From assembly GCA_013619125.1 (NCBI GenBank), contig JABXKS010000111.1, forward strand, positions 1-64,000: 64,000 nt of DNA, given 5' to 3'. Below are positions 28,191 to 36,106 of the stretch, piece by piece (position 1 is the stretch's first letter; each line of letters begins with the position of its first letter). Both the position numbers and the translations under genes were made by a program. The stretch is from Clostridiales bacterium (GTDB lineage: Bacteria > Bacillota > Clostridia > Tissierellales > GPF-1). The notes below the pieces were generated by a model. The model saw nothing but the letters and a program-made list of their open reading frames with translations, did not search any database and had not been told where the DNA came from.

Positions 28191-28354
28191 TGTTTTCTCC
28201 TTCGATGTCCTTACTTCCTCTTCTTATCCTACATCAATCCGGTGAAAAACAAAAGAATGGGCATCACAGCACATGCTCACACCGAAACAGTTTCCTTCTC
28301 TCAATTATGATATAATTTGTATACCCATTATTTATGAAAAGAGAGGCAACGTAT

Positions 28355-29695
28355 ATGAGGTATCCTGTCACAAAACAGCAATTCCTACACTCGCTTCTCA
28401 GTGGAAGTATTGTTAGCATACTCTTGATTGGTCTTTCACTTTTCCTTCTCCACTCAGCTTCAGAGAACAACCATAAGCAGGAACGGCTTGATTTGATGAA
28501 TCAAATTGTACAATTCCAATCCAATGCTGAAATTTCTATCCAAGAAAGCATCTACCTGCTGGAAGGGTATATGGCCTATGTCGAAACCAACCCACAACTA
28601 ACCAATCGGGAATCTGAAGCTTTCTTGGGTTATCTATTGAAAGGTAAAAAAACCCTGATTCGAAATATTGGCATTCTTCAAGACACAACAGTCATTTGGA
28701 ATTATCCCCAAGAAGGGAACGAAGAAGCGCTTGGCGTTGATTTGGCAAAAGTAGACAATCAGAAAACCGATGTCTTGCTCGTTAAGCAAAAAGAGGAAGA
28801 CACATTCCGCGGTCCGATCCACCTCGTACAAGGTGGACAAGGGTTTATTGCACGTCTTCCTTTAACTCGATTCGGAGAGTATTGGGGACAAATCAGCATC
28901 GTTATGGATGCTAACCAATATAAAAAAGACTTAGAAGAAATCGCAAAAGAGGCTGGCCTAAATATCGGCGTTTACAATGCTGACCAATTCCCCACTACCC
29001 TCTTCTTCGGAGATCCAACGATTCTTGATCGAGATGGTCTCATTCTGGATATGAAGATTTTAAACAGTCAATGGCTTGTCACTGCCGAACCGATTGAAGG
29101 ATGGCAGTCCAGCATTCCATATTACACCGAAATGCGTTTAATTTTCATTATGATCAGTTTATTGATTGGACTCATGGTTTTTATGATTCTGCATACCCGG
29201 CACCAGCTTCAATACCAAGCGCTAACCGATCCCCTCACCAATTTGGGAAATCGACATGCCTTGAATAAACAGATGGACAAGCTTACAAGTGCAATTCAAA
29301 AACTGCCTGTAACCGTGTTTATGTTTGACATCAATTCCTTCAAGCAAATCAATGATCGATACGGACACGAAATTGGCGATCAAGTCCTGGTAACCTTTGC
29401 TGAGCAACTTAGTAAACTTCCTTGTCAGCAAAAAAAAGTTTATCGATTGGGAGGCGACGAGTTTCTTGTCATCCTAATTGAGTCATCTAAGAACTGCAGA
29501 TTAACTCTTGACGCTGCAACAATCCGTAAACAGCTTTCCTTTTCACTAGATACCGTCGCTCCATCAACACAAATTGTTCCTAGTATAGGAATTGTTCAGC
29601 TGCCGGAAGAAGAAGTTTCCCTAGAAAAAGCGATCGCAACGGCAGACCAACGCATGTATAAAGACAAAGATGCCATGCGACTTAATACAAAATAA
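28355..29695 (+). CDS. Diguanylate cyclase with extracellular CHASE-like sensor
   Basis: A 446-aa membrane sensor that makes cyclic di-GMP. Membrane segments at about residues 12-32 and 258-278 flank an extracellular region resembling the CHASE domain (about 40-250). The GGDEF domain follows (about 295-440): DPLTNLGNRHALNKQ, DINSFKQINDRYGHEIGDQVL and the intact catalytic loop RLGGDEFLVIL; an RxxD inhibitory site is not visible 5 residues before it. The ATG at 28355 follows GAGAGG; an upstream ATG at 28334 lacks a ribosome site. A TATAAT box lies near 28312. Its product could control the possible c-di-GMP riboswitch upstream of the VWA surface protein in this window. Confidence 0.94.
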   Translation: MRYPVTKQQFLHSLLSGSIVSILLIGLSLFLLHSASENNHKQERLDLMNQIVQFQSNAEISIQESIYLLEGYMAYVETNPQLTNRESEAFLGYLLKGKKTLIRNIGILQDTTVIWNYPQEGNEEALGVDLAKVDNQKTDVLLVKQKEEDTFRGPIHLVQGGQGFIARLPLTRFGEYWGQISIVMDANQYKKDLEEIAKEAGLNIGVYNADQFPTTLFFGDPTILDRDGLILDMKILNSQWLVTAEPIEGWQSSIPYYTEMRLIFIMISLLIGLMVFMILHTRHQLQYQALTDPLTNLGNRHALNKQMDKLTSAIQKLPVTVFMFDINSFKQINDRYGHEIGDQVLVTFAEQLSKLPCQQKKVYRLGGDEFLVILIESSKNCRLTLDAATIRKQLSFSLDTVAPSTQIVPSIGIVQLPEEEVSLEKAIATADQRMYKDKDAMRLNTK

Positions 29696-34207: not shown

Positions 34208-35629
34208 TTAATTCTTCGGAATGGTTCGGACACTGTCGCATCCTTCAAACACGATTCCACCATAGGTTAATCCAGTCAGACAAGCTTCTGTATCACCTGG
34301 CTGAATATTTACTTCTTGCGTATTAAAGTGCAAGACGAGATCTAAGAATCCGTCGCCGTTTACATCTTCAAAAGAGAGAACTGGATCTTGCGGAACTGCG
34401 CCTGCAAATACCACTGATCCCATACTAACCGTCGTTACATCAAAATCAGCACTGCCCAGGATTCCTACAGGAATAACACCTTTGTTTTTCAAGTTGATAC
34501 TATTCGGGAAGCTGCCAGGCTTAATATCGATTAAAACTGATTCTTTCACATGAATCAGCACATCTTGAGTGCCATATTCATTGCCGTACGCGTCCACTGC
34601 AGTAAGTACAAAGTCGTAATCACCCGCTGGCGTACCCATGGGAACTTCTATCTCAATAGCAACATCAATCGATCCATCATACATCCATCCGCTTTCGTAT
34701 CCGGTTGTCAACCAACTCTCAAATCCGGGGTCTGCTACAAAGTGCAGATCCTCTACATAGGCGAGAGACTTTTTAATCTCTTCACTGACTTGATCAAGCC
34801 AAATTCCTGAACTTGTTACAAACATCTTGCCACCCGTGACGCCTGTCCAGTAATCCCAATATTGACTATAGGTCGCTGTTGAATGGCTTTCCAACAACTT
34901 GACTTCCGCATTAGCCATATCCGCTAAAACGATTTGAAGATCAAGATCATCGCCTGTGCCCATCACCGTATCAGGCCCCGGGTCACCGCCGGTAGACCAA
35001 GTACCGCTCGTTCCAGGCACGTCTTCTTTCAAATCGCAATCATGAGGCACATTGTCGCCAAAGTTTAACAACACTTTCTCTGCTCCACTTCGCCAATTCA
35101 CGTTAGAATCCGCATAGCTCTCATAGAAAATTCGCGTATAATCCTGGGGACCGTCTCCACCGTTGCCGAGACTCAATCCGGTGATCGCAGCATCAACAAG
35201 TGTATTATTTGAAGTCACTCCCTGATCCAAACTGTATGGATAATCACCTGAGACAGCATAACCATACACTGCATCATATCCGCATGAGGCATAGGAACCC
35301 ACATAGTCCATGTAAGACATGACACCATAGTCAAAATCAATACCATGCAAGCCGCCCCATGTATCCAACTCAGTCATCAAAGCTCCCGCATTTGTCTTTG
35401 CCGCTCCGATAATGCCACTCATGCTGCTCGTTAAGTCAAATGCAAATACAACATCCGCTTCTTCAGACAACTCAAATGTGACTGTCTTTATTTCATCAAC
35501 ACGTTCTCCCGGAAACAGACTCGCTTCCAAAAAAAGCGGTTCAACATCAGCAACAGCCGGAGTAGCCAAACTAAGAATCAATAGAAAAGCCATAACAACG
35601 CCCATCAATCGTTTCCCCTTGCGTTTCAT
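34208..35629 (-). CDS. Secreted von Willebrand factor A-domain protein
   Basis: A 473-aa exported protein. A signal peptide (MKRKGKRLMGVVMAFLLILS to about residue 28, cleavage near AVA-DV) is followed by a VWA domain (about 45-300) with the metal-ion site DLTSSMS, where the classic DxSxS has a Thr for the first Ser spacing (D-L-T-S-S). Next is a beta-sandwich (about 300-365), then a C-terminal module starting IDIKPGSFPNSINLKNKG (about 368-470), a domain seen in many secreted proteins of archaea and anaerobes, with a calcium-binding-like DVNGDGFLD. No sortase motif or membrane anchor. Start at 35629 after AAAGGAGAAATGAA. A long structured leader lies upstream. Likely adhesion or matrix role. 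Confidence 0.9.
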   Translation of the reverse strand: MKRKGKRLMGVVMAFLLILSLATPAVADVEPLFLEASLFPGERVDEIKTVTFELSEEADVVFAFDLTSSMSGIIGAAKTNAGALMTELDTWGGLHGIDFDYGVMSYMDYVGSYASCGYDAVYGYAVSGDYPYSLDQGVTSNNTLVDAAITGLSLGNGGDGPQDYTRIFYESYADSNVNWRSGAEKVLLNFGDNVPHDCDLKEDVPGTSGTWSTGGDPGPDTVMGTGDDLDLQIVLADMANAEVKLLESHSTATYSQYWDYWTGVTGGKMFVTSSGIWLDQVSEEIKKSLAYVEDLHFVADPGFESWLTTGYESGWMYDGSIDVAIEIEVPMGTPAGDYDFVLTAVDAYGNEYGTQDVLIHVKESVLIDIKPGSFPNSINLKNKGVIPVGILGSADFDVTTVSMGSVVFAGAVPQDPVLSFEDVNGDGFLDLVLHFNTQEVNIQPGDTEACLTGLTYGGIVFEGCDSVRTIPKN

Positions 35630-35795
35630 TTCATTTCTCCTTTCGAACAGATTGAAATTCGTAAACATTCAAATCATATTGCAAAACGTCGTTTCTATAT
35701 AATCATCGCCTCCTTTCGTGTGCAAACAGCTCTTCAAACTGCCAATCATCCATGAGACGCTAGAAATTTCAAACTCGAAATCAATCCCCCCTTTC
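35630..35795. other. Leader between hairpin and VWA gene
   Basis: About 165 bp of untranslated leader on the minus strand. It contains a good Shine-Dalgarno (AAAGGAGG near 35712-35719) followed by only three codons before a stop. No gene is supported. Confidence 0.4.
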
Positions 35796-35908
35796 AAAAA
35801 CAGGTGAAGACCGCCATAGAACATGGCAGTCTGACAATCCTTGTATCTTCTCGACACTTCAGACTCACAACTTTGCGTACTTATCTTTCGACAAGATCAT
35901 CTTTTCAC
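35796..35908 (-). ncRNA. Candidate cyclic di-GMP-type riboswitch leader of the VWA-protein gene
   Basis: The minus-strand RNA shows a 6-bp stem capped by a GAAA tetraloop (CTTGTC-GAAA-GATAAG, 35880-35895), directly followed by ACGCAAAG (35871-35878), then a 7-bp helix AGTCTGA/TCAGACT (35859-35865 with 35828-35834). GAAA tetraloop plus ACGCAAAG is the core of the GEMM/c-di-GMP-I aptamer. The right arm of the helix also pairs in a 9-bp terminator-like hairpin (35809-35831) followed by T5, so the two states exclude each other. The consensus outer P1 helix (GGCAA/UUGCC) is not seen, which weakens the call. Confidence 0.4.
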
Positions 35909-36106
35909 ATTTTATAATATTGTTTATTTTTAAAGCCTTATAGTAAACTTTTGAACATTTACTTGAATATCTTACCATGGAAATAAACATATGCCCGTTT
36001 ACACAATTTATGTTTACGATTCTCTAAATAATTACCCGCTCCCTTTTGAATAAAACAAGTAAAATTTGCCAATTCACTTCAACCCAAAAAACCATTCCGC
36101 ACCGCA
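35909..36106. other. AT-rich region upstream of the leader RNA
   Basis: About 200 bp of AT-rich DNA without a plausible gene. TATTAT/TATAAA-like hexamers at about 35911-35920 sit just upstream of the candidate leader RNA and could be its -10 box; no clear -35 box. Confidence 0.4.

Follow-up and report, generated by a model that had tools for sequence, protein, structure and literature searches.

The closest described relatives of the element analysed here are the c-di-GMP-I riboswitches (RF01051, GEMM-I), whose type example is Vc2. In the cited sections of the structural work, C22, A23, A25 and G45 are listed as highly conserved and A49 is described as docking on the G45-C22 pair (PMC3764141), and the cited part of a simulation study places G21 and C46 among the residues contributing most to binding (PMC9049102). 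Bc2 of Bacillus thuringiensis is described as a class I ON switch located before the collagen adhesin gene cap, and of the 16 c-di-GMP riboswitches of C. difficile 630, 11 are reported to work (PMC6366702). As far as these accounts go, switches of this class before adhesins, such as Bc2, and non-working copies, such as those of C. difficile, are already known (PMC6366702, PMC6200980), and the principle is not new. The locus described below lies in a window of 64,000 nucleotides, which is the whole stretch of DNA analysed, and comprises the following features, with aptamer residues numbered as in Vc2 following the usage of PMC3764141 and PMC11218506 in the parts cited.

35906 to 35915, minus strand: 5' strand of the outer helix P1, AUAAAAUGUG (complementarity by inspection; constrained fold of -23.5 kcal/mol)
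35822 to 35911, minus strand: degenerate c-di-GMP-I aptamer, RF01051 (cmscan, 47.1 bits)
35896 to 35901, minus strand: ligand-core strand G20-A21-U22-G23-A24-U25, in the orthologue G-G-C-A-A-G (alignments)
35880 to 35895, minus strand: P2 hairpin CUUGUC-GAAA-GAUAAG with a GAAA tetraloop, all six pairs forming (cmscan alignment and sequence)
35871 to 35879, minus strand: UACGCAAAG, corresponding to U42 A43 C44 G45 C46 A47 A48 A49 G50 (cmscan alignment)
35816 to 35825, minus strand: 3' strand of P1, CAUGUUCUAU, common to the terminator-like hairpin (sequence and constrained fold)
35808 to 35832, minus strand: terminator-like stem-loop AGACUGCCAU-GUUCU-AUGGCGGUCU, 25 nt (25 of 25 bases the same as in the orthologue)
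35796 to 35807, minus strand: former U-tract, now UCACCUGUUUUU, in the orthologue UUUGUUUUUUUU (alignment and terminator score)
35690 to 35795, minus strand: lower leader, sharing about 87% of its bases with the orthologue over about 107 nt (alignment)
34208 to 35629, minus strand: regulated gene for an exported protein of 473 aa, resembling VWA proteins in motifs only (ATG 35629 as the likely start, Shine-Dalgarno AAAGGAG)
28334 to 29695, plus strand: CHASE-GGDEF diguanylate cyclase, context only (GGDEF 122.8 bits, weak CHASE)

Using cmscan with Rfam 15, RF01051 was found to match positions 35911-35822 (-) above its gathering cut-off of 35 bits, with an E-value of 4.5e-6 for the entire window against all 4227 families and an alignment that covers the model end to end, from position 1 to 87. 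The initial annotation, made from the letters alone, had suggested a possible divergent c-di-GMP riboswitch and named the lack of a covariance-model hit as grounds for its rejection; the family call was right, and the limit of 35908 was drawn too short, as the aptamer extends 3 nt further. For class II (RF01786), cmscan up to an E-value of 1 reported no match at the locus, where one overlapping match from the clan, lower in score and not named, was left out, and a genome-wide search gave no match either, but it found none in any control genome and hence does not prove absence. Three matches above cut-off were obtained in the whole window, namely the RF01051 aptamer and two Moco/tungsten cofactor riboswitches (RF01055), which lie at 7301-7185 (-) with 67.7 bits and at 15035-14926 (-) with 42.9 bits. 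The 120-nt leader at 35915-35796 folds with z = -2.97, an equally good fold being reached by 1 of 200 shuffles. The motif GAAAN7ACGCAAAG by itself, allowing at most one mismatch, occurs twice in the window with 0.46 expected and at least twice in 10 of 100 shuffles, which is not significant.

The architecture of the aptamer is largely retained. P2 is formed by the strands 35895-35890/35885-35880, and the GAAA-capped stem and the junction ACGCAAAG at 35878-35871 (-), both recognized earlier as adjacent, are real and separated by the single base U35879. Within the junction, C44, G45, C46 and A47 correspond to 35877-35874; A47, present in 84 of the 84 aptamers compared, is unaltered, as is C46, although the latter now faces A21. 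The ligand-contacting G20 (35901) and C92 (C at 35826) are both kept. The expected G21-C46 and C22-G45 pairs and A23 are absent, since A21, U22, G23, A24 and U25 (35900-35896) supply A.C, U.G and G23 instead, and 21-46, the first pair of P2, is the sole pair marked non-standard in the RF01051 alignment. The expected outer helix had been described as not visible, which was mistaken: inspection and constrained folding show that 35915-35906 can pair with 35825-35816 to give P1, 9 of its 10 positions being paired and the remaining one an A.C mismatch. P1 falls outside the Rfam model of RF01051.

The departure from the consensus was quantified using 84 aligned RF01051 matches, obtained from 22 of 31 genomes searched and collected with the RF01051 model itself, so that very deviant copies are under-represented. 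Position 21 is G and position 23 is A in 83 of the 83 other aptamers, with A and G, respectively, only in the window. C occupies position 22 in 82 of the 83 others, and U22 was found twice among the 84, the other case being G009:C2:88574, with G45 intact. At columns conserved to at least 85, 90 and 95%, the window aptamer departs at 7, 5 and 3 positions, as compared to 5, 3 and 2 for the next worst, which makes it the most deviant of the 84 and bears out its description as divergent. Both pairs, 21-46 and 22-45, are standard in 81 of the 84, the exceptions being the window, G000:C15 and G013:C184; counted by genome, broken core pairs occur in 2 of 11 switches of the source genome, 0 of 10 in G001 and 0 of 11 in G002. 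The C15 copy (G000:C15:7531-7618), another switch of the source genome, scores 43.4 bits; it precedes a lipoprotein-like gene, and its core pair 22-45 is broken (C22.A45). In G002:C34, its likely counterpart, the core pairs are standard and the score is 58.1 bits. At position 20, A instead of G was observed in 19 of the 84 matches, including 4 of the 11 of the source genome (C62:59410, C109, C91 and C15); A20 is a change typical of c-AMP-GMP-sensing GEMM-Ib aptamers. A pattern search for the AAGAT core, a weak test, revealed no second example among 391 class-level genomes: it gave 32 rows in 31 genomes, with 14 rows for a reversed-pattern control, and the rows were judged by eye except for a look-alike in G209, which was rejected as it has no RF01051 match.

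An orthologous leader provides the direct comparison. In a search of 41 genomes, source genome included, the full-length gene was found in one other genome only, that of a congener, at G002:C12 (contig DAOUQF010000001.1, MAG CSMAG_119), encoding a protein 73% identical, and similarity confined to the C-terminal part was observed in G001 and, at a different locus, once more in G002. The G002 leader matches RF01051 with 63.1 bits and has a canonical core. Identity between the two leaders is 59% upstream, 88% in the aptamer and 100% over the 25 nt of the hairpin, and the part of the aptamer behind the core is 93% identical. The differences form two clusters. The core GGCAAG of G002 is GATGAT in the window, with 4 of the 5 positions behind G20 changed, and the tract UUUGUUUUUUUU has become UCACCUGUUUUU, with 5 of 12 positions changed, as compared to 5 of 74 in the aptamer behind the core and none of 25 in the hairpin. 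Such clustering, taken as any 5-nt segment with at least 4 of the 11 changes at a position not preset, is only moderately unusual (p = 0.037); p is 0.0006 for the fixed segment, which was picked after seeing the data. Since the orthologue has the same core as every other aptamer, the derived state of the core is that of the window. Long-term neutral decay of the entire leader was considered and rejected in view of the 93% and 100% identities of aptamer behind the core and hairpin set against the 59% upstream.

The expression platform is a further point where the two species differ. Because the 3' strand of P1 lies inside the hairpin 35832-35808, the aptamer with P1 and the hairpin are mutually exclusive, which defines an ON-switch layout in which ligand stabilises P1 and blocks the hairpin. 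In folding calculations, the window leader reaches -34.3 kcal/mol unaided as compared to -23.5 kcal/mol with P1 enforced, and the G002 leader -40.1 as compared to -26.1 kcal/mol; the hairpin form is thus predicted to be the more stable one unaided in both species, which fits a switch whose ligand-free state is OFF. The competition between the 3' side of a helix and a terminator-like hairpin, proposed previously, holds as regards a good stem; behind it stands UCACCUGUUUUU instead of a proper T-run, so that the window copy lacks the U-tract directly following the hairpin of an intrinsic terminator, and no terminator was called there in a scan. With a formula after d'Aubenton Carafa and colleagues, the terminator score is -25.3 for the window and +31.0 for the orthologue. 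A run of five T is still present 7 nt downstream, and a longer hairpin, AGG...CCU followed by GUUUUUGA, was found, which could end just before this run and may allow some termination there, although this extended form scores -36.4. Of the 32 switches in the genus (three genomes), 20 show a hairpin that overlaps the 3' end of the aptamer and is followed by at least five T in eight bases. Nine further switches of the genus (C90 type, tandem pairs) also score below -25 and have no such terminator; among the switches scoring so low, only in the window copy has the stem been retained and the tract lost. A new closing helix is also possible, GUGAA at 35908-35904 with UUCAC at 35808-35804, of which four of five pairs appear in the window minimum-energy fold. 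In the lower leader at 35760-35695 (-), a possible pairing of CGUCUC (within 35760-35754) with GGAGGCG would mask a strong Shine-Dalgarno at 35714-35709 before a three-codon ORF (ATG ATT ATA TAG); the orthologue retains this pairing and the ORF stop, and the fold taken by itself is not significant (z = +0.54).

The gene downstream most likely starts at ATG 35629, preceded by a good Shine-Dalgarno. Comparison with the G002 gene over 470 codons, using NG86 and LWL85, gave dN 0.18, dS 1.49 and dN/dS of about 0.12, a ratio indicating that the gene is under purifying selection and therefore probably still used. It had been labelled a VWA surface protein: the product does look exported, but no VWA family was obtained in Pfam or NCBIfam profile searches, and a search of solved structures with it gave nothing. 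The stretches DLTSSM, GGDGPQDY and FGDNVPHD presumably resemble VWA motifs. The AlphaFold model, built from a two-row alignment, is unusable (pLDDT 32.5).

The source genome, a draft in 130 contigs that is 98% complete with 3.5% contamination, contains 11 RF01051 matches and 24 GGDEF matches. The diguanylate cyclase pointed out earlier at about 6 kb is real and lies about 5.9 kb away, its nearness meaning little in view of these 24. By a simple scan, all 11 switches stand before genes with a signal-peptide-like N-terminus, two tandem aptamers sharing one gene, and from such sequence features the switches of the genus seem to make up a regulon of surface and secreted proteins that c-di-GMP turns ON; targets of this kind agree with the cited account of GEMM targets (PMC6366702). 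The tandem pair, at G000:C62:59491-59296, precedes one exported protein, transglutaminase-like by eye, and is conserved across the genus, in each of its three genomes. The first aptamer, which no good terminator overlaps, has A20, and the second has G20.

We favour, with moderate confidence, the reading that the element is a c-di-GMP-I ON switch by descent, in which ligand control and termination were probably lost together while the gene is still expressed. In the ancestral design, presumably kept in the congener, c-di-GMP would bind at the three-way junction, P1 would close with CAUGUUCUAU, the terminator hairpin would be blocked and polymerase would continue into the gene for the surface protein; in the absence of ligand, transcription would be stopped by the hairpin with its U-tract. 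In the window copy, A.C stands in place of the ligand-stacked pair G21-C46 and a U.G wobble in place of C22-G45, positions 23 and 25 have lost their A, and behind a still perfect hairpin the U-tract is interrupted. As G21, C22 and A23 are replaced together, much affinity should be lost, and the aptamer would be expected to bind c-di-GMP poorly or not at all; the hairpin would no longer stop polymerase efficiently, and the gene would be transcribed whatever the c-di-GMP level. Such a paired loss makes sense because a non-binding ON switch would silence its gene unless the terminator is also lost. Homology, layout, the two clusters of derived changes and selection on the gene are shown by the present data, whereas we infer, from a comparison with one orthologue, that binding and termination were lost, that expression is constitutive and in which order these events took place. 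Against decay stand the score above the gathering threshold and the retention of G20, A47, C46 and C92, as well as the modest statistical support for the clustering and the five T downstream, at which some termination may survive. Likewise, the leader outside the two clusters is almost unchanged, unlike after long neutral decay, which suggests either that the loss is very recent or that the RNA keeps some role.

The same retained features would be accommodated by a working ON switch of weaker affinity, in which A21.C46 and U22.G45 are tolerated and the hairpin, extended to CACCU, ends at the five T. The score above cut-off, the kept G20, A47, C92, GAAA loop and P1, the other U22 aptamer with intact G45, the hairpin identical in 25 of 25 bases and the existence of the extended form before GUUUUUGA all speak for it; the invariance of G21 and A23 in the other 83 aptamers and the poor terminator scores of both hairpin forms relative to the orthologue make it unlikely, if still to be reckoned with. 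That changes are confined to pocket and platform, with the rest conserved, would also be expected of a re-specified riboswitch, whose altered pocket binds another ligand and whose GUGAA/UUCAC helix belongs to a changed expression platform, and c-di-GMP-I aptamers are described, in the cited part of one study, as shifting ligand by small changes, to c-AMP-GMP (PMC7266159). The four pairs of the new helix in the minimum-energy fold are in line with it, but a complementarity of 5 bp arises easily by chance, the AAGAT-core search left a single example and the target gene is the same as for the canonical orthologue, so that we hold this to be improbable. Equally improbable is its evolutionary form, namely that an aptamer with an A21.C46/U22.G45/G23 core has been caught changing pocket and platform together, for the same surface-protein gene and towards another ligand or output. 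An assembly or binning fault that made the odd core and tail could be imagined in a draft of so many contigs with some contamination; two separate multi-substitution clusters in clean sequence beside an intact reading frame are untypical of read errors, and the leader elsewhere follows species divergence, which leaves very little room for such a fault.

If decay of the ON switch is the true account, the same gene in two sister species, one with an intact and one with a broken switch, would constitute a natural experiment on riboswitch loss, in which sensor and terminator appear to be lost together while hairpin and coding gene persist. It would then also follow that an above-threshold Rfam match can be a relic and that regulon counts based only on covariance models include dead switches.

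Compared with known systems, the window element shares with RF01051 and Vc2 the whole model, the GAAA tetraloop, ACGCAAAG, G20, A47, C92, C44 and P1, and is set apart from them by the replacement of G21, C22, A23 and A25, A.C and U.G taking the place of the near-universal G-C and C-G. It resembles Bc2 in its class I aptamer, anti-termination layout and surface protein target; however, in the cited description Bc2 responds to c-di-GMP, whereas the core and U-tract of the window copy are damaged (PMC6366702). With the non-functional class I copies of C. difficile 630 it would have in common a c-di-GMP-I element no longer regulating its gene, but the working class I switches there are described as OFF type, and two defective ones as lying in duplicated regions (PMC6366702, PMC6200980). 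The G002:C12 leader, with an orthologous gene, a closely similar aptamer and an identical hairpin, differs in having the canonical GGCAAG core and the UUUUGUUUUUUUU tract. The window element represents a known class, from which it has diverged and in which it has probably decayed; the main merit of the finding is a clean pair of sister species.
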